From: Bdellovibrio bacteriovorus W | GTDB lineage: Bacteria; Bdellovibrionota; Bdellovibrionia; Bdellovibrionales; Bdellovibrionaceae | DNA: 64,000 nt | Direction: 5' to 3' | Assembly (NCBI GenBank): GCA_000525675.1 | Contig: CP002190.1 | Coordinates: forward strand, 1,488,001-1,552,000 | Shown: positions 35,054 through 44,037 of the stretch, piece by piece | Numbering within the stretch: position 1 is the first letter of the stretch | Layout: every line of letters begins with the position of its first letter | The notes under the pieces: model-generated | What the model saw: only the letters and a program-made list of their open reading frames with translations | Told to the model about the DNA's origin: nothing | Database searches by the model: none | Made by a program: the position numbers and the translations under genes

Positions 35054-37384
35054 ATGCCTGCGCGTTCATTGAGGTCTGCAAATTTAAAGCTCTTATTCTT
35101 ACTGATTTGCAGTTTGTTTTTGTTCGCGTGTACAAATCGCGAACTCCCACAGGTTTTAACTCTTAAAAGCCAAGTCTTTAAAGCTGATATTCAAGGACCT
35201 TTTCCTGAATCTGGTGGATCAACAACAAGCTTTTCCTGGCACATCAATTACCCACCGAATTTTCGCGTCGATTTAAGCTATGATCATGTCCAAATCCTTG
35301 GATCTTCTATCGAAGGCTGTCAAATTGAAGATATTTCTGGAGATCTTCAGCGCCGAGTTGTCTCAATACGAGGCTGTGAGGCTAAGAATGCCTCAGTATC
35401 CATCCAAATAGCATCAGGAAGCGCCACACAAGGTGGAGATTTTGCTCCTGTCATAAGGGGTTTTAGAGAGGCTAAATTAAAAGGGGATTTGAAGGTCGAT
35501 TTTTCCTCGTCTGCACCCGCTTTAAATAATTTATCGACCATTCCCCTTCGCTTAATCACTTCAAATCCTTTACTGAAATTGGATCTGAATCATTTTGTTT
35601 TAAAAAATACATCTTTGAAGAAGTTAGAAAAAGTTTCTGACTTTGAATGGGCCTTAGAAATAGAGCCTGTTTCTGATGGAGAATTGAAAGTTTCACTTCC
35701 AGAACAAACTCTTTTAGATATTTTTGGAAGCTCCAATGAACTGGCTGAAATTGAGTTTCAATCAGATCGGACTTCACCGTTTATTATGATAAGCAGAAAA
35801 ACTCCCTATGATACAATCACATTGGGCCAAAAAGTTTCTTGGAAGCTTGAAGTCAGTGATTCATCGGGCGCGCACTTTGATCTTCCAAATGCATCCATAA
35901 GCCTTAAGGGAGATCCAGATAGCTGTCAGTACCACTGGAAAGTCGTAGGAGCTTATACGGAAATCACAATCGAAGACTGTAAAAGTTATGGCGAAGTCTG
36001 GTTTGAAATAGGCGCAGGTTCTGCGGTCGATAATGCCGGTAATGCATCCGTCCCAACGACTTCTGAAAAGATCAAAGTGCTTGAGCCTGAGAATCCGTTT
36101 TTTGCCAATCAATTATTTATAACAAAATGGGATACGTCTTTAGAATCCAATGCCGAGCCCAGCAATCAAATTACAATTCCTCTAGATCTTAGTAAGTCCT
36201 ATAACTTTAGAATCGACTGGGGCGATGGCACTCATGAAAATATAACCAATACCGCACAAAATCCTTTAGGACGCTCTCTCTCGCATATCTATCCGACCTC
36301 TGGAATCTATACAGTTAAGATGATTGGTCAGATTCCCCGCCTTTCGTTTAAAGAAAATTCGAAGAGCCAAAATAAACTTTTGAGAGTTGAACAATGGGGA
36401 TCTAACGAGTGGGAAAGCATGGCTCACATGTTTTTCTATGCGAGGAATTTTGAATTAAGCGCTTACGATCGACCCAATTTGTCTCAAGTGACTGATATGT
36501 CGAGTATGTTTGAAGGAGCTATTAAATTTAATAGTTTTATCGGACTTTGGGATACTTCAAACATCAATAACATGAATTCAATGTTTAAATATGCTCAAGA
36601 GTTCAATGAATATATTGGTGATTGGAACACTTCAAATGTCACCGACATGGCTAGTATGTTTGAAAGCGCTCGTAAATTCGATCAAGTCATCACCCACTGG
36701 AATACTAAGAATGTCATTACAATGAATTCGATGTTCCTCAATGCAACAGCTTTCAATCAAGACATTGGCTTGTGGGACACGAGCTCAGTCCGGGATATGT
36801 CGAGTATGTTTGAAGCCGCATCCATGTTTAACTCCGATATTGGTGATTGGGACACCTCGCAAGTTAAATCCTTCTCTGGGATGTTTAGTTACGCTTCTAA
36901 ATTTAATCAATATATCGGAGACTGGAATACCCAGAATTCGCAAGACATGAGTGCGATGTTTTCAGCCGCTCTGGCTTTTAATACTTATATCGGAAAATGG
37001 AAAACCGAGAATGTTAAGAATATGAGTTCCATGTTCCGTGATGCCACCTCATTTAACGACGAGTTTATAGGTAATTGGGATGTCTCAAAGGTTGAAGATA
37101 TGTCGCATATGTTTGAAGGCGCGACTTTGTTTAATCAAAACCTTAACAACTGGAACGTTGGCACGGTCAAAAACATGAATTCGATGTTCGCACGAACGGC
37201 AAACTTCAACCAATACATTGGTACATGGGATGTTTCTCAAGTTCTTTCTATGAATTCGATGTTTCAAAACAGTAAGAAATTTAATCAAAATCTAAGTGGT
37301 TGGATGGTGAATTTAAATGTCACCTCAGTTAATTTTGCAAGCGGTGCCACAAGCTGGACAGCTCCAAAACCGGCCTTCCCTTAA
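35054..37384 (+). CDS. Surface lipoprotein: PKD-like domain plus BspA-type (DUF285) repeats
   Basis: A 776-residue lipoprotein (lipobox FLFAC). The first ~350 residues are two or three beta-sandwich units (GSTTSFSWHINYPP..., then a cadherin/Ig-like DSSGAHFDLPNASISLKG). A PKD-like domain lies at ~375-430 (RIDWGDGTHENI ... SGIYTVKMIG). From ~475 to 770 run about eleven 25-residue DUF285 repeats of the form W-[DN]-T-S-x-V-x-x-M-x-S-M-F-x-x-A-x-x-F-N-x-x-I. The BspA family binds host proteins or other bacteria in pathogens; here a prey- or surface-binding role is possible. GATAAG lies 6 nt before the ATG and there is no SD. It is convergent with the next gene (4-nt overlap). Confidence 0.8.
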   Translation: MPARSLRSANLKLLFLLICSLFLFACTNRELPQVLTLKSQVFKADIQGPFPESGGSTTSFSWHINYPPNFRVDLSYDHVQILGSSIEGCQIEDISGDLQRRVVSIRGCEAKNASVSIQIASGSATQGGDFAPVIRGFREAKLKGDLKVDFSSSAPALNNLSTIPLRLITSNPLLKLDLNHFVLKNTSLKKLEKVSDFEWALEIEPVSDGELKVSLPEQTLLDIFGSSNELAEIEFQSDRTSPFIMISRKTPYDTITLGQKVSWKLEVSDSSGAHFDLPNASISLKGDPDSCQYHWKVVGAYTEITIEDCKSYGEVWFEIGAGSAVDNAGNASVPTTSEKIKVLEPENPFFANQLFITKWDTSLESNAEPSNQITIPLDLSKSYNFRIDWGDGTHENITNTAQNPLGRSLSHIYPTSGIYTVKMIGQIPRLSFKENSKSQNKLLRVEQWGSNEWESMAHMFFYARNFELSAYDRPNLSQVTDMSSMFEGAIKFNSFIGLWDTSNINNMNSMFKYAQEFNEYIGDWNTSNVTDMASMFESARKFDQVITHWNTKNVITMNSMFLNATAFNQDIGLWDTSSVRDMSSMFEAASMFNSDIGDWDTSQVKSFSGMFSYASKFNQYIGDWNTQNSQDMSAMFSAALAFNTYIGKWKTENVKNMSSMFRDATSFNDEFIGNWDVSKVEDMSHMFEGATLFNQNLNNWNVGTVKNMNSMFARTANFNQYIGTWDVSQVLSMNSMFQNSKKFNQNLSGWMVNLNVTSVNFASGATSWTAPKPAFP
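36474..37300 (+). repeat. About eleven 75-bp repeats encoding DUF285 units
   Basis: Each 25-codon unit encodes a Trp-Asn/Asp-Thr start and a MxSMF core (for example WNTSNVTDMASMFESARKF, WDTSSVRDMSSMFEAASMF). Unit sequence is diverged at the DNA level, so these are old copies. Confidence 0.85.
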
Positions 37385-38739
37385 ACATCAAAAGATCTTC
37401 CCATCTTTGGAATTTCAACGCTTAAGCCAAGTTCTGATTCAATCTTTTGCGCAAGCTCCTTTGCAGCATTAAGTTCGCCATGAACTAAAAACACTTTCTT
37501 CGGTGCTTCTTTTGCACTCTGTATCCACTTTAAAAGCTCGCTTTGGTCAGCATGGGCAGAGAATGAATCTGCTGGAATAATTTTACTTTTAATTTCATGG
37601 AACTGACCGTGAATTTTTATTTCGCGTTTTCCTTCCAACAGATCTCGACCACGCGTACCTGGACTTTGGAACCCAGCTAAAAGAATCCTGTTTTTTGCAT
37701 AACCACCAAAAGCCTTGAGGTGATGTAAGACTCGGCCGCCTGTAAGCATGCCGCTAGCTGCGATAATAACCATGGGTCTTTGATGGGATTGATTTAAATC
37801 CTTTGAAGCTTCCGATGTTTTCACAGAGTGAATCTCTGACATCACTTCTGCAAACTGACCTCGACCCAACTTGTGAAATGGGTAATATTTTTCATAAAGA
37901 GCGCAAGCATCCGAACCCATCGGTGAATTAAAATAGACGGGGACTGTTGCTGGTATCTCCCCGTTTCTTTTTAATTCTACAATTTCATAGAGAATATTCT
38001 GTGACCGCCCGACTGAAAAACTTGGAATTAAAAGCACTCCCCGATCTTTAGCTACAGCTAGGATTTCTTCTTTTAAAACTTCTTTCGAGCTGACAGCAGA
38101 GTGATTTTTATGTCCATAGGTAGATTCCATCACCAACATATCAACCCCTTGAGGAGCCTCTGGCGGCGGCATCAAGGGATCTTCGTAACGTCCTAGATCA
38201 CCAGAAAAGTAAACACTCTTTTTACCATTAGAAATCCAAGCCGAGGCAGCTCCCAAAATATGTCCCGCCATAAAGAATCTTGCCTGCAAAGTTCCAATCT
38301 GAAATTCCTCTTTTAGATCCACAGTTACAAAATGTTCAAGAACCTTTTCCGCATCTTCCACCGTGTAAAGAGGGAGCGCTGGACTGTGCTTGGAGAAACC
38401 TTTTTTATTAGCGTACTCGGCATCTTCTTCCTGAATTTTTGCTGAGTCTAAAAGAATCAAACGAGTCAAAGCCGCTGTGGGTTCTGTGCAGAAAATCGGC
38501 CCCTTAAAGCCTTCACGCACTAAGATCGGTAAGGCCCCGCAATGATCCAAATGGGCATGAGTTAATATCACTGCATCAATTTGACTGACGTGAAAATCAA
38601 ACTCCAGCCAGTTCATCTCTCGCAGCTCTTTAAGTCCTTGAAACATTCCGCAATCCACAAGAATTTGCGTATTTTCATCTTGAACAAGAAACTTAGAACC
38701 TGTGACGGTTTCTGCTGCGCCTAAAAAATGAACTCTCAT
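37381..38739 (-). CDS. MBL-fold beta-CASP RNA-processing-type hydrolase
   Basis: A 452-residue metallo-beta-lactamase-fold protein of the CPSF/RNA-specificity group. The zinc site HAHLDH is at ~57-62, followed by MAGHILG, YFSGDLG and STYGHKNH, then the beta-CASP insert (FFSVGRSQ..., PSFSVGRSQNILYEI) and the RNA-specificity region (IIAASGMLTGGRVLHHL, SFSAHADQ) with motif His residues near the C-terminus. Related proteins are exonuclease/endonuclease types acting on RNA or DNA. ATG 38739 with GGAGG 5 nt away is the start; 38757 is less likely. Its 3' end overlaps the BspA-like gene by 4 nt. Confidence 0.88.
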   Translation of the reverse strand: MRVHFLGAAETVTGSKFLVQDENTQILVDCGMFQGLKELREMNWLEFDFHVSQIDAVILTHAHLDHCGALPILVREGFKGPIFCTEPTAALTRLILLDSAKIQEEDAEYANKKGFSKHSPALPLYTVEDAEKVLEHFVTVDLKEEFQIGTLQARFFMAGHILGAASAWISNGKKSVYFSGDLGRYEDPLMPPPEAPQGVDMLVMESTYGHKNHSAVSSKEVLKEEILAVAKDRGVLLIPSFSVGRSQNILYEIVELKRNGEIPATVPVYFNSPMGSDACALYEKYYPFHKLGRGQFAEVMSEIHSVKTSEASKDLNQSHQRPMVIIAASGMLTGGRVLHHLKAFGGYAKNRILLAGFQSPGTRGRDLLEGKREIKIHGQFHEIKSKIIPADSFSAHADQSELLKWIQSAKEAPKKVFLVHGELNAAKELAQKIESELGLSVEIPKMGRSFDV

Positions 38740-38895
38740 GGAAGCCTCCAGATCCAATATATTAGCTCTAAAAGGGCGTGTTTTCCAAAGAGCTTTCTTG
38801 ACGCAAACCTAATAGTTTTAAGAGTGCTTTTTCTTTGTTTTAACTAACAAGTTTGGATAGTGTTGGGGCGATTTTTCAAAATCGAGGGGGCTTTG

Positions 38896-39663
38896 ATGAA
38901 ATCAGTTTTATTGCTTTCTTTAGCAGTCGTATTGGGCGGTTTAGGTTGTCAGGCAGGGGATAAATCTCCAGCGACTCCCCGTCTTAGTATCCAAAAAAAA
39001 ATTCAAAACGAACGCAATCAGTATCCAGCCCATTGGTGGAAAGAAGTTCCTCGTGAAGAGGCCAAAACTTGGGAAATCCTTCCTCAAGACGCAGGTCTTG
39101 GCGAGGTCGTCTTAAGCAAGCGCAACGAGTTGGGTCTTTTATCAAACTTTTCAGATCGCTCTTTTGTGTTTCACGGTAAGTGTTACTCCACAGTAGAAGG
39201 TTACTGGCAGATGATGAAGTATCCAGAGACTTCGGATGATCCACGTTGGAAATGGGCTCGTCAGTGGAAGTACACTCGTGATCAAGTGGCAGAGATGAAT
39301 GGTTACAGCGCAAAAAGTGCCGGCAACTATGCTAACTTTTTGATGGATAAAAACGACGCAAACTTTGTAAGCTTTGAAGGAGAGTTCTTCACCTTTGCGA
39401 CAAGCACTCCAGAAAAACACTATGCTTTGATTTACGCAGCTCTGGTTGAAAAAATCCGTCAAAACAAAGATGTCTATGATGTTCTGATGCAAACCAATGA
39501 TCTTGTTTTAAAGCCAGACCACGGGATCTCTGAAAGATCTCCTCGCGAGTGGCATTACAATTTGCTATGGATGGATATTCGCGAGGACATTAAAGCCGGT
39601 CGCCTAAGTCTTGAGTCTTCAGAAGATCTTTCTCTAAAAACTTGTAAATCCGTTCGCTATTAA
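38896..39663 (+). CDS. Lipoprotein with NADAR domain
   Basis: A 255-residue protein. ATG 38896 follows GAGGGGG; the start gives a lipoprotein signal (LLSLAVVLGGLGC, Cys18). The NADAR (RibA-like N-glycosidase) domain occupies ~75-235: LGLLSNFSDRSFVFHGK with a following SVEGYWQMMKYP-type block (the Glu in TVEGYWQ is the expected catalytic residue) and a C-terminal DHGISERSPREWHYNLL. NADAR proteins hydrolyse N-glycosidic bonds in ADP-ribosylated or aminouracil compounds, in the cytoplasm. A membrane-lipid-anchored, exported copy is unusual. It starts an operon: the PLP enzyme begins 1 nt after its stop. Confidence 0.72.
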   Translation: MKSVLLLSLAVVLGGLGCQAGDKSPATPRLSIQKKIQNERNQYPAHWWKEVPREEAKTWEILPQDAGLGEVVLSKRNELGLLSNFSDRSFVFHGKCYSTVEGYWQMMKYPETSDDPRWKWARQWKYTRDQVAEMNGYSAKSAGNYANFLMDKNDANFVSFEGEFFTFATSTPEKHYALIYAALVEKIRQNKDVYDVLMQTNDLVLKPDHGISERSPREWHYNLLWMDIREDIKAGRLSLESSEDLSLKTCKSVRY

Positions 39664-39664
39664 C

Positions 39665-40852
39665 ATGATTGATTTTTCTCAAGACTTTCAAAGAAAAGAT
39701 CCAAGTCTGATTAATATCAATAATGGCACCTTGGGGCTTTGCCCAGATGTTGTTATTGATGCGCAAATCGAAGAGTTAAAGAAATACGAATTCAACACCT
39801 CGGCTTCTTTGGGTGGTTCATGGCCAAGACTTTGGGAGGTGCAAAAGCAGCTTGGGTTGTTTTTAAATGCAAGCCCCGAGGATTTGTTTTTAAGACCCAA
39901 TATTACCGTTGTCCTCAATGATTTAATCATAGGATTAACTCTGCCGGCAAAGTCCGAGATTCTGTCTTTTGAATTTGAATACGGGGCTATTGTTAATATC
40001 TTAAAGAAGAAATGCGAAGATGATTCTTTAAGTTTAAGACTTCTTAAAGCAGATCTTTTATTAAAGCCACGAACCTCTAAGAACGACTTTTTAAACTATC
40101 TAGAATCTGAACTTCGTCCAGAAACAAAACTTGTAGTTATCAGTCATATTTTCACAGGCACAGGTCACTGCGTGCCTTTGGTTGAGATTCAAAAGCTTCT
40201 TACAAGTAAAGGCATTCTCTTGATCGTTGATGGAGCCCACGGCCCTGGTGCGATGAATATCGACTTTGAAAATGAACTGAAAGATTTAGATTTTTATTCT
40301 GGGAATCTCCACAAGTGGACGATGGGACCTAAGGGAACCGCTTTTGGCTGGGTGAACCCCTCCAAACAGCACTTATTAAAACCCTTGATGGCTTCATGGA
40401 CCTATTACCCAGATATTCCCGTGCACTATCAAATGTTTTCCCATGCAGGAAGCTTTGCTTCGCGGATGCTCTGGTCTCATTCACAGGCTTTTTCTGCTTA
40501 CTTTGCTTTAGAAAAATGCTTTAGCTATTGGAATCGATACGGAAAAGAAGTTCTCTTTCAGGAGATTCAAAAAAGAGCCCAGTGGATTTCCAAAGAATTA
40601 GGGGCTGCAGGCTTAGTCCATACAACTTATGAGCAGGAAGAGTTTGTCTCCCCGTTGTTATGTTACAAGCTCGAGCAGTTTGATGAATCACTTTTTAAAA
40701 GACTTCTTCTGGAGCTTAATGGCGTGCGCGTGCAGATTGGCCGCCCACAAGTTCCAGATCATCAGTTTTTAAGAATCTCAGCGCATATACACAATACTCA
40801 AGCAGAGCTCGCACAAGCCGTGGAGTGTTTAAAACTTGCGATTAAAAAATAA
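39665..40852 (+). CDS. Class V aminotransferase-fold PLP enzyme
   Basis: A 395-residue PLP-dependent enzyme of the class V/isopenicillin-N epimerase-like group. The cofactor Lys is in SGNLHKWTMGPKG, preceded by the Asp of LLIVDGAHGPGA that pairs with the pyridine nitrogen; the N-terminal ININNGTLGLCPDVV holds a Gly/Asn substrate-side turn. Reaction unknown; racemase, desulfurase-like or aminotransferase functions are all possible. It is 1 nt after the NADAR stop and 12 nt before the OsmC gene; cytoplasmic (no signal). Confidence 0.82.
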   Translation: MIDFSQDFQRKDPSLININNGTLGLCPDVVIDAQIEELKKYEFNTSASLGGSWPRLWEVQKQLGLFLNASPEDLFLRPNITVVLNDLIIGLTLPAKSEILSFEFEYGAIVNILKKKCEDDSLSLRLLKADLLLKPRTSKNDFLNYLESELRPETKLVVISHIFTGTGHCVPLVEIQKLLTSKGILLIVDGAHGPGAMNIDFENELKDLDFYSGNLHKWTMGPKGTAFGWVNPSKQHLLKPLMASWTYYPDIPVHYQMFSHAGSFASRMLWSHSQAFSAYFALEKCFSYWNRYGKEVLFQEIQKRAQWISKELGAAGLVHTTYEQEEFVSPLLCYKLEQFDESLFKRLLLELNGVRVQIGRPQVPDHQFLRISAHIHNTQAELAQAVECLKLAIKK

Positions 40853-40864
40853 AGGATATCTTTC

Positions 40865-41272
40865 ATGGTAAAAATGACGGCAATTTATGAAGGCGAAAAA
40901 CACTGTGAGATCACGCACGGCCCTTCAGGCTCTATTATCCACACAGACGCTCCTAAGGACAACAACGGCAAGGGTGAGGCTTTCTCCCCGACAGATCTTT
41001 TAGGTGCTGCTATGGGCGGCTGTATGCTGACTGTGATGTCTATTGTGGCTGAACGTGATGGCGTCGATCTAAAGGGTTCAAAAGTCGAGGTAGAAAAAGA
41101 AATGGGTACGAATCCCCGCCGCATCGTTAAGTTGAACGTGGTTCTTCGTCTGCCAAAAGCTATTCCTGCAGATTACAGACAGAAGCTTGAAAACACGGCG
41201 ATGACTTGTCCTGTGAAACAAAGTGTTCACCCCGATATGCAAGTGCCGGTGGAGTTTGTTTACGATATCTAG
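40865..41272 (+). CDS. OsmC family protein
   Basis: A 135-residue OsmC/YhfA-type protein. It holds the two redox cysteines: GAAMGGCMLTVMSI (~57) and AMTCPVKQSVHPD (~117), the peroxidatic and resolving Cys of OsmC/Ohr. Some YhfA-like members lack peroxidase activity. It is the third gene of the NADAR-PLP operon, so the operon links an exported glycosidase, a PLP enzyme and a thiol peroxidase or redox protein. Confidence 0.9.
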   Translation: MVKMTAIYEGEKHCEITHGPSGSIIHTDAPKDNNGKGEAFSPTDLLGAAMGGCMLTVMSIVAERDGVDLKGSKVEVEKEMGTNPRRIVKLNVVLRLPKAIPADYRQKLENTAMTCPVKQSVHPDMQVPVEFVYDI

Positions 41273-41477: not shown

Positions 41478-42560
41478 ATGAAAAAAGCCATCCACTTTAA
41501 GTGGTATTTTTCGTTTTTGTTCTTAATGATCGGATCTTCTGCAAACGCTGCAGAGATGTGCCGCCATATCTTTCACACCCCAGAGGTGATGATTAGAGAT
41601 GTGGACTTTGGTTTAAACCGCACCAGCCGAGTTAAATCATTAAGAGTTCCTGAAGAGCTTTCCAATTACTCCACTATTAAGTCAGAGCTTTGGAAAGCTA
41701 TGGATACCTTACCGGCTAAACGCCGCGCTGAAGTGGATCACCTTCTTCTTTCGGTCGAATTTTTTGACTACACTCATACAGCCAGAGAAATTGTTCCAGC
41801 TTTTCTAGAAGGCAAAAAAACTTCCTTTAACTTCACACGACTGTACGATGTTCAAGGAGAGAAAACCGCAGCTCCTTATAATGGCTTCGTATCAGCTCGT
41901 GATTTCTTAATTCAAAAGCAGCCTCCAGTCACAGCTGAGCTCTTATTCCAGCTTCATGCTCGCATTATGGAAGGCGGCGTGGAGGGGGTTGGTAAAGGAG
42001 ATCTTGGAGCTATACGCCATCAGCACTGGATGGGAAATGTTGCCGGAGAGTTCCGCATCACACCTCGGGAAAAGGCTGTGATTGAAGAGAACCCTTATCT
42101 TTCTTTTCAACATTTAAAAACGTCGCAAAGCCATCTCAAGGAAAGCACTTGGAACAAGATCACCATTTGGGGTGAAAAACGTGGAATGCGTCTTGAGAAC
42201 CAAGACCCGACATTAATTGAAGGTCGCATTCACTATCCGTTCGTTTTAACTCCAAAACTTGAAACAATTCGCCTGATTGAAAAATCACATCCTGAACTCT
42301 TTAAAGAGATCATGGCTTATCGTGAGAAAAACAAACCAGACATCAATGGTGCGGGTCCTGAAGCTCTCGAGAGAAAATTTACCAAGGCTTTGGTTGAAGA
42401 AAGATTTGATAGATTTCTAAAAGAAAAGTCTAAGCTCGGCGAAATCCGCATCGGTAAGAACGAACATCGTTATAGGGAGTTCTTACTCCCCCATCCATTC
42501 CTGAAACCCCGCTTTAAGGGCCTCTTCGAGATCTTTACGATCGATTTCATAGACATTTGA
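41478..42560 (+). CDS. Exported protein of unknown function
   Basis: Not recognised. The 360-residue product has a signal peptide cut after ANA (residue ~25). In the middle, TAELLFQLHARIMEGGVEG followed by GKGDLGAIRHQHWMGN recalls the N-terminal part of Fic domains (helix, then 'Gk-x-R'), but no HPFxxGNGR motif is in the right place, so I do not call it Fic. The C-terminus (from ~335) overlaps the convergent lipoprotein gene by 78 nt; the final ~26 residues may be read-through of the opposing gene. The SD is GAGG before ATG. Confidence 0.5.
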   Translation: MKKAIHFKWYFSFLFLMIGSSANAAEMCRHIFHTPEVMIRDVDFGLNRTSRVKSLRVPEELSNYSTIKSELWKAMDTLPAKRRAEVDHLLLSVEFFDYTHTAREIVPAFLEGKKTSFNFTRLYDVQGEKTAAPYNGFVSARDFLIQKQPPVTAELLFQLHARIMEGGVEGVGKGDLGAIRHQHWMGNVAGEFRITPREKAVIEENPYLSFQHLKTSQSHLKESTWNKITIWGEKRGMRLENQDPTLIEGRIHYPFVLTPKLETIRLIEKSHPELFKEIMAYREKNKPDINGAGPEALERKFTKALVEERFDRFLKEKSKLGEIRIGKNEHRYREFLLPHPFLKPRFKGLFEIFTIDFIDI

Positions 42561-42863
42561 ATTTCCCGTTGGGGAGCCACAAACTTGGATCCTCATCATT
42601 CCGTCGTTTTGGTTTTTAGCTGAATAAACTTTGATTTTCCCCAATTGCTTTTGCATCTCTTCAACAGGGATTAACTTCCCTTGTCCACACTGAAGTGTGC
42701 CATCAGGTTTATGAATTTTAATTCGATTGGATGCAGAACTTTCCACTTCGGTTGCCTCCGTCGCTGGTAATGCTGGAGCTACTTTCTTTTGAGAGCGGCA
42801 ATTGCCTTGCGCACAAGCTCCAAGAATAAATGCGAAAGAAAGATTCACAAGAATTTTAAACAT
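42483..42863 (-). CDS. Lipoprotein, hypothetical
   Basis: A 126-residue lipoprotein (lipobox LGAC, Cys17). The mature part has a Cys-Ser-rich start (CAQGNCRSQKK), a linker and a ~75-residue domain with two Cys (LQCGQGK, QVCGSPTG). It begins 19 nt downstream of bamB's stop on the same strand, so it is the last gene of the yfgM-bamB operon; a role in the envelope is inferred only. The 3' end overlaps the convergent gene by 78 nt. Confidence 0.6.
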   Translation of the reverse strand: MFKILVNLSFAFILGACAQGNCRSQKKVAPALPATEATEVESSASNRIKIHKPDGTLQCGQGKLIPVEEMQKQLGKIKVYSAKNQNDGMMRIQVCGSPTGNSNVYEIDRKDLEEALKAGFQEWMGE

Positions 42864-42882
42864 AAGAACACACTCCTATATC

Positions 42883-44037
42883 TTAGAAATACGGCGAGCG
42901 AATCCAGCCTGCATCAATAGCATAGAGATTGGCTTCACCTGAAATGAAGTAAATACGATTATTTTCTTCATCCACTTGTGGAGTTGATAAAATCCCTCGA
43001 CCTGGCTCAAAAGAACCCAGCTCTTTACCATTTGCAGGATCCAAGAAGCGCAAACTCCCTTGAGATTCACCAAAAACAAGAGCGCCCTTAAATGTACGAA
43101 CTCCTGTCGCGATCCCCTCATTGAGTTTATAGCTCCAGATTTTATCGCCGTTGTTCTTATTCAGCGACCAAACTTCTCCATTGGTTGTTGGGTAAATCAA
43201 ACGATCTCCCACCAAAGTCACGCCGCTATAACCACCACCATCTACGCGCCAAAGGATTTCTCCTTTATCCACAGAGACAGCATAAAGTTTGTCATCATAT
43301 CCTGCGATATATAGGTTTTTCCCATCAATCACAGCCGCCGCATCGATATCTCTAAATCTCTTATTACGATTTAATTGAAGTTCCCACTGAACAGATCCAG
43401 ATTGGGCATTCAGAGCGACTAAAGCTCCGTCAGAGAAACCCACATAGAGAACTCCGTTTTGCAGGACAGGACGGCTGCCTCCACGAATAGAGAACTGCGA
43501 TGTGTCCTGACGCGAGTACAGCCAAATCTGACGACCCGTCGCTGCATCTAGCGCATAAAAAACGTTATTTCCGGCTAAGAAATAAACAACACCATCAGCA
43601 AGTAAAGGAGCTGCTAAGTTTTCGGCTTTTGTCGGGAAAGACCATTGAATTTTCCCTGTAGAGGCTTCAAGAGAGTAAAACTCTCCATCACTAGCGCCTA
43701 CAAAAAGACGGTCTTTAATATGCGTTGCGCTTGGCTCAACACCATTTTGAATTGGAAGCTTCCAGACAAGCTGGCCCGTGACTTTGTCATAGCCAGAAAT
43801 CCCATCCATTCCGTTACCTTGAACAACCAAATCGCCCACAATCTGTGGAGTCATGCGATTGATCTTACGGAATCCAAGATTATCGTGATCTGTGGTTTGG
43901 CGAATCCAAGCCGTTTTCACTTGGTATTCACGCTTGCTGTTGTTCTTGGAACTCCACTTCTCTAAACCACTTTGAACACTAGCACAGGCAGATAGAGATA
44001 ATACAGCCGTAGCAAGAACAACAGAACGAATCATCAT
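42883..44037 (-). CDS. bamB: Outer-membrane assembly lipoprotein BamB
   Basis: A 384-residue lipoprotein (lipobox LSAC) with an eight-bladed PQQ-type propeller: repeated blade ends such as DGEFYSLEASTGKIQWSF, NVFYALDAATGRQIWLYS and GALVALNAQSGSVQWEL. BamB is a scaffold of the BAM complex that inserts beta-barrel proteins. The gene before it is the YfgM-like partner of SecYEG/BamB, the order found in gamma-proteobacteria, though der does not follow here. Confidence 0.9.
   Translation of the reverse strand: MMIRSVVLATAVLSLSACASVQSGLEKWSSKNNSKREYQVKTAWIRQTTDHDNLGFRKINRMTPQIVGDLVVQGNGMDGISGYDKVTGQLVWKLPIQNGVEPSATHIKDRLFVGASDGEFYSLEASTGKIQWSFPTKAENLAAPLLADGVVYFLAGNNVFYALDAATGRQIWLYSRQDTSQFSIRGGSRPVLQNGVLYVGFSDGALVALNAQSGSVQWELQLNRNKRFRDIDAAAVIDGKNLYIAGYDDKLYAVSVDKGEILWRVDGGGYSGVTLVGDRLIYPTTNGEVWSLNKNNGDKIWSYKLNEGIATGVRTFKGALVFGESQGSLRFLDPANGKELGSFEPGRGILSTPQVDEENNRIYFISGEANLYAIDAGWIRSPYF

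Follow-up and report, generated by a model that had tools for sequence, protein, structure and literature searches.

The literature presents NADAR proteins as enzymes that erase guanine ADP-ribosylation inside cells, or as glycosidases of the riboflavin pathway. In Bdellovibrio bacteriovorus W a NADAR-family gene carries a predicted export signal, as do relatives in several phyla, which raises the question of what ADP-ribose or ribosyl chemistry occurs outside the cytoplasm. The locus was analysed within a window of 64,000 nucleotides, positions 1488001-1552000 of a single-contig 3.0-Mb genome. The preliminary description presented three co-directional reading frames, NADAR, PLP enzyme and OsmC, with gaps of 1 nt and 12 nt, and the coordinates bore this out (Table 1). 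Both neighbours also kept the identities given to them, the class V PLP enzyme scoring 77 bits with Pfam Aminotran_5 (cut-off 21.5) and the OsmC protein 52.2 bits with its Pfam model (cut-off 27.5).

Table 1. Features of the cassette site in the window, and glycosylase-like genes near exported NADARs in other genomes (positions prefixed by locus).
Feature	Position	Strand	Basis
Beta-CASP metallo-hydrolase, left flank of cassette site	37381..38757	-	
Exported NADAR-family protein, probable lipoprotein, 255 aa, ATG start	38896..39663	+	ORF, fold match to solved NADARs, orthologues
NADAR signal sequence up to Cys18, weak G-L-G-C lipobox	38896..38949	+	Sequence; PROSITE-type pattern yes, strict consensus no
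N-terminal block specific to the exported NADAR family, residues 43-66, YPxHWW...WEILPQ, before NADAR core	39022..39093	+	
NADAR Cys96	39181..39183	+	With Cys250, the only two cysteines past residue 44
NADAR putative catalytic Glu101 in TVEGYWQ	39196..39198	+	Identity in alignment; aligns with E43 (oomycete enzyme)/E88 of PMC11543638
NADAR Lys108, putative equivalent of phosphate-binding K50/K95	39217..39219	+	Alignment (K50: oomycete enzyme); role from PMC11543638
NADAR Asp208-His209, putative last-strand catalytic position	39517..39522	+	Alignment
NADAR Cys250, in genus-specific C-terminal tail	39643..39645	+	
Class V PLP enzyme, 395 aa, K217 in HKWxxGPxG, cytoplasmic by appearance	39665..40852	+	
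OsmC-family protein, local newcomer to cassette	40865..41272	+	Pfam; gene position across the genus
Truncated exported Fic-domain partner, 360 aa	41478..42560	+	Homology to full-length partners only over 41517-42482
126-aa lipoprotein-like gene, right flank of cassette site	42483..42863	-	
BamB-like gene, after the 126-aa lipoprotein-like gene	42883-44037		
Glycosylase-like family, GQDxTH-type motif	L079:5464-7869, L080:4317-6884, L077:5273-7750, L110:4483-6561, L123:1-1452, L049:2055-4517		
Small intracellular-looking glycosylase-like relative	L058:4620-5429		

The NADAR assignment held for fold and active site and fell short of every profile cut-off. The window protein scored 18.8 bits with PF08719 (cut-off 35.1), 25.5 bits with TIGR02464 (equivalog cut-off 73.7) and 30.1 bits with its best Pfam match, PF08010 (Phage_30_3, cut-off 36). 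No PF08719 match at E 0.001 was found in the whole window genome, phmmer of the protein directly against the PDB gave only chance matches, and a defence library gave a single match of 19.4 bits. An AlphaFold2 model was generated from the window protein and 74 relatives (pLDDT 90.5). YbiA and an oomycete NADAR-ADP-ribose complex topped the Foldseek list obtained with this model. VIA-align gave Z values of 11.2 for 8bau (NADAR-ADP-ribose complex), 10.8 for YbiA (2b3w) and 10.0 for 8bat, the next chain after these three solved NADARs reaching only 2.9.

Active-site positions were read from an alignment of 111 rows, consisting of 109 family members (101 of them distinct) together with E. coli YbiA and T4 gp30.3, and leaving out four family proteins of at least 300 residues. 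The Glu of TVEGYWQ (E101), put forward as catalytic in the preliminary description, was identical in 111/111 rows, YbiA and gp30.3 included. The K108 position was Lys in 88 rows and Leu in 20; D208 and H209 were each kept in 107, their placing on the last strand depending on the alignment. PMC11543638 and PMC11125620 describe the Glu and Lys as active-site residues that most of the NADAR superfamily keeps, with a Glu, Asp or His on the last strand distinguishing the YbiA, BC4488 and phage gp30.3 groups. Section 2.1 of PMC11125620 reports that T4 gp30.3 hydrolyses guanosine-ADP-ribose in vitro. Judged from its last-strand Asp-His, the exported family appears nearest the phage gp30.3 group. As fold and residues match and the Pfam cut-offs are missed, the window protein is placed in a divergent branch of the superfamily and is no typical member.

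Ahead of the NADAR core, P44, W47, W59, E60 and P63 of the N-terminal block were invariant in a second alignment of relatives, which left out 6 of 80 proteins that were truncated, long or fused (L057, L061, L074, L076, L082 and L118). The block was not found in YbiA or T4 gp30.3. The C96/C250 pair was the only one past residue 44 in all nine distinct Bdellovibrio sequences and would suit an extracytoplasmic disulfide. Some relatives had other architectures. L074:7233-8654 and L082:7182-8603 each encode a 474-aa protein with the whole NADAR domain twice; in the first copy Asn replaces the last-strand His and the MLAYPE motif is altered. L118:853-2076 combines an exported NADAR with an N-terminal domain lacking a Pfam match, and L061:7923-8933 adds a C-terminal extension.

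Orthologues without a signal peptide had been named in the preliminary description as an argument against an exported protein. Of the 101 distinct relatives, 100 had a hydrophobic stretch before the PxxWW block that the family shares, under a loose limit over the first 60 residues that 442/797 control ORFs also passed and, for the proteins of the species-level collection, with start codons picked by a script favouring hydrophobic N-termini. Since controls often pass too, the argument for export is conservation at one fixed place rather than the raw count. The window lipobox, originally called clear, matched a PROSITE-type pattern coded for this analysis and missed a stricter consensus. Its conservation was partial, the PROSITE-type pattern occurring in 45/101 distinct relatives and the strict consensus in 7/9 NADARs of the genus. 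Judged by these N-termini, there is a conserved extracytoplasmic NADAR family, and its window member is probably lipid-anchored. No recognised description of an exported NADAR was returned by a search of the open-access literature with NADAR, YbiA and export terms, a scope outside which most subscription papers fall.

Relatives of the exported NADAR were present in 33/99 near genomes and 110/368 genomes of the phylum. The species-level genome collection contained 145 related stretches, and the 80 of these that were listed, on which all loci counts are based, came from Bdellovibrionota, Acidobacteriota, Verrucomicrobiota, Planctomycetota, Ignavibacteriota, Sumerlaeota and single MAGs labelled otherwise. 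The nine Bdellovibrio NADARs formed one clade (support 100) in a quick tree; this clade joined two Bacteriovoracaceae proteins (96) and not other members of its own family, a grouping that hints at lateral gain. A tblastn search of 50,697 phage records found no relatives, and viral contigs contained one 27%-identical stretch. The 80 listed loci were searched for a neighbour shared between phyla: bar NADAR itself, no cluster occurred in more than 8 loci, and in the example examined the ORF of the 8-locus cluster ran antisense to NADAR.

Conservation of the proposed trio was seen for the NADAR and PLP genes and failed for OsmC. Among 24 genomes of the genus, NADAR and PLP were present in the same 9 and missing from the same 15, and were adjacent in 9/9 carriers with gaps of 1-9 nt. 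The OsmC gene occurred in 24/24 genomes, was located elsewhere in the other 23, and was not in the cassette at the six other NADAR-positive loci read at length. As a core gene of the genus, standing beside NADAR-PLP in the window genome only, it was rejected as a cassette part. The gene next after OsmC, absent from the preliminary description, proved to be a truncated partner of the same cassette, a Fic-domain protein. NADAR, PLP enzyme and Fic protein were all three present in 9/24 genus genomes, and none of the three in the remaining 15. The NADAR/PLP/OsmC trio is not a system as named; the best-supported unit is NADAR, PLP enzyme and exported Fic protein, of which the window contains a decayed copy.

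The nearest solved chains to the PLP enzyme were L-cyst(e)ine C-S lyase and PvdN. The enzyme fell short of the PvdN-type model (NF051467, 75.8 bits against a cut-off of 650). A PLP-NADAR link beyond the genus gained no support: a PLP relative was found in 7/75 outside genomes, four of which also had a NADAR, on other contigs. The beta-CASP hydrolase formed the left flank of the cassette in six of the nine NADAR-positive genus genomes (window genome included), the others having another left flank. The 126-aa lipoprotein gene formed the right flank in six other NADAR-positive and four NADAR-negative loci read at length. In four NADAR-negative genomes (G001, G003, G007 and G018) the same site, beside the beta-CASP hydrolase, carried two different exported genes; in G008, G012 and G020, also NADAR-negative, the hydrolase had other neighbours. 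The two exported genes of one NADAR-negative Bdellovibrio (L170:5464-7812 and L170:7791-9518) encode 782 and 575 aa, the first matching a nucleoside-phosphorylase model below threshold (18.6 of 25.1 bits). Adjoining the cassette in the window, positions 35054-37384 encode a protein that resembles a lipoprotein and has five stretches of DUF285 repeats (455.9 bits).

The Fic partner, an exported protein of ∼770 residues, was full length in 8/9 NADAR-positive genus genomes, with two copies in G014. All nine homologues scanned passed the PF02661 cut-off of 24, with 24.7-41.2 bits. The window copy matched residues 15-335 of a 770-aa protein of B. bacteriovorus kdesi; its homology stops there, ahead of the Fic motif, which it lacks, and no further piece was found elsewhere in the window genome. 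Used as a query against the 15 NADAR-negative genus genomes, the window copy gave no match and a full-length partner at most weak Fic-motif stretches. Two homologues with long N-terminal regions of no assigned identity, of ∼1500-1590 aa, were noted at L214:6376-10980 and L215:1336-6105.

A conserved C-terminal domain of the partner was present in 50/368 genomes of the phylum. W51-R52-G53, S133, Q200 and E202 were invariant in 19/19 diverse relatives, mostly in YSTS and RQxE contexts. R52, S133 and Q200-x-E202 form what we take to be the R-S-E pattern of ADP-ribosyltransferases, and an ADP-ribosyltransferase is our guess for this domain. The C-terminus had no Pfam match to E 10 and only unrelated hits among PDB profiles; hhalign against six ADP-ribosyltransferase proteins gave probabilities of 0.1-0.3, no better than controls. 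An AlphaFold2 model of the domain (pLDDT 36) was unusable for fold search, and viral contigs contained no relative. PF01129 (ADP-ribosyltransferase) was found in 9/99 near genomes, none of this genus.

Across the phylum the exported NADAR was present in 38/50 genomes with the C-terminal domain and 72/318 without it, and in 17/22 against 41/159 when collapsed to genera; kinship is controlled down to genus rank, and the association is only partly freed of it. Inside family f12 the figures were 30/37 against 24/92 by genomes and 15/17 against 10/31 by genera (Fisher p = 0.0002). Outside f12 they were 8/15 against 48/224 (p = 0.009), all eight being Bdellovibrio. Outside the genus the two genes were close in only two genomes, with other genes between: ∼2 kb apart with two intervening ORFs in G145, and ∼3.8 kb with four in G153. 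In the 80 listed of 145 loci the domain lay in the NADAR flank only at the two Bdellovibrio ones.

The proposal we favour, quite possible though somewhat short of probable, is that the exported NADAR is the eraser or immunity half of a pair with the exported Fic effector; here we infer its activity, substrate and eraser role, the pairing and the ADP-ribosyltransferase C-terminus alike. The NADAR would be secreted, sit outside the cytoplasm, probably on a lipid anchor, and use Glu101, Lys108 and Asp208/His209 to hydrolyse an N-glycosidic bond in a substrate that is ADP-ribosylated, or ribosylated in a closely related way. In the Bdellovibrio cassette the Fic protein, with its ADP-ribosyltransferase-like C-terminus, would be the writer; alternatively it may be an effector from which the predator protects its own envelope. 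The window strain would have kept eraser and PLP gene beside a broken writer, as orphan immunity genes do. Eraser function is argued from the NADAR fold, the conservation of E101 and H209, the export signal, the all-or-none cassette and the co-occurrence, and also from the in vitro activity of gp30.3, the nearest named subfamily, and the other exported two-gene cassette at the same site in four NADAR-negative genomes. Against a writer-eraser pair stand the Leu at K108 in 20 of 111 rows, the want of ADP-ribosyltransferase support from Pfam, PDB profiles, hhalign and structure model alike, and the 72 NADAR carriers in the phylum without the partner C-terminal domain. The rarity of close gene pairs outside the genus, the near absence of the domain from NADAR flanks and the incomplete control for kinship weigh on the same side. 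Those 72, out of 110, together with the members in Acidobacteriota, Verrucomicrobiota, Planctomycetota and Ignavibacteriota, instead favour a general extracellular N-glycosidase acting on ribosylated bases or nucleotides from prey or environment, for scavenging or detoxification, with the Fic cassette one among several incidental neighbours.

The general N-glycosidase also draws on a second exported protein, with base-glycosylase features. A family of large uracil-DNA-glycosylase-like proteins with export-like N-termini lay next to the exported NADAR, or no more than a few kb away, in six distinct Bdellovibrionota lineages; its members have ∼690-860 aa (one, truncated by a contig end, has 484 aa), and the Pfam uracil-DNA-glycosylase cut-off was reached by two of five scanned and missed by three. 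In L079 the gene ends 53 nt upstream of NADAR on the same strand. A 269-aa relative in a seventh lineage, adjoining a Terriglobia NADAR, passes the cut-off. This neighbour favours a role in extracytoplasmic base or nucleotide chemistry, on a count confined to NADAR neighbourhoods. The all-or-none Fic linkage in Bdellovibrio and the within-family co-occurrence tell against an incidental cassette, and a general N-glycosidase is judged possible but rather doubtful. An envelope protein that keeps the NADAR fold for binding or structure but is no hydrolase would agree with the sub-cut-off scores, the variable K108 and the missing WGDG-type loop of YbiA; with E101 in every row and D208 and H209 in nearly all, this is quite improbable. 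That NADAR, PLP enzyme and OsmC form one redox-linked envelope pathway, as first proposed from their common direction and short gaps, is very improbable indeed given the genus-wide distribution of OsmC and the absence, by eye, of an export signal from the PLP and OsmC proteins.

Under the eraser-writer reading, a writer working on NAD or ATP beyond the cytoplasm would need its cofactor from prey, or delivery into prey. It is unlikely, if conceivable, that predators use a complete extracytoplasmic system in which an exported Fic and ADP-ribosyltransferase protein modifies prey or envelope and the NADAR lipoprotein reverses the modification, protecting the predator. Were it so, the widespread lone exported NADARs would serve at the envelope as immunity to exported writers of this kind. 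In a predator growing within other bacteria, the Fic cassette offers a concrete partner for tests.

Four known systems were compared with the locus. Phage gp30.3-type NADARs (PF08010, T4 30.3) share the SNFA..PF...G...EGF.Q..K stretch and the last-strand His, whereas the window family is exported, carries the PxxWW/WEILPQ N-terminal block and has Asp ahead of the His. E. coli YbiA, the riboflavin-intermediate N-glycosidase (TIGR02464, 2b3w), shares the fold and the spacing of catalytic Glu and Lys, and differs in having no export signal, a WGDG loop and a last-strand Glu. Fic/Doc adenylyltransferases (PF02661) share the HPxxNGNGRTxR motif with the full-length partner, which differs in being exported, ∼770 aa long and extended by the conserved C-terminal domain, while the window copy ends before the motif. 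None of the cassette neighbours identified by Pfam is a DarT. The DarT1-associated NADAR antitoxins and YbiA-YarT pairs (PMC11543638, PMC11125620) likewise place a NADAR near an ADP-ribosylating protein, here only suspected; those pairs act intracellularly, whereas in Bdellovibrio both proteins bear export signals and the partner includes a Fic domain.
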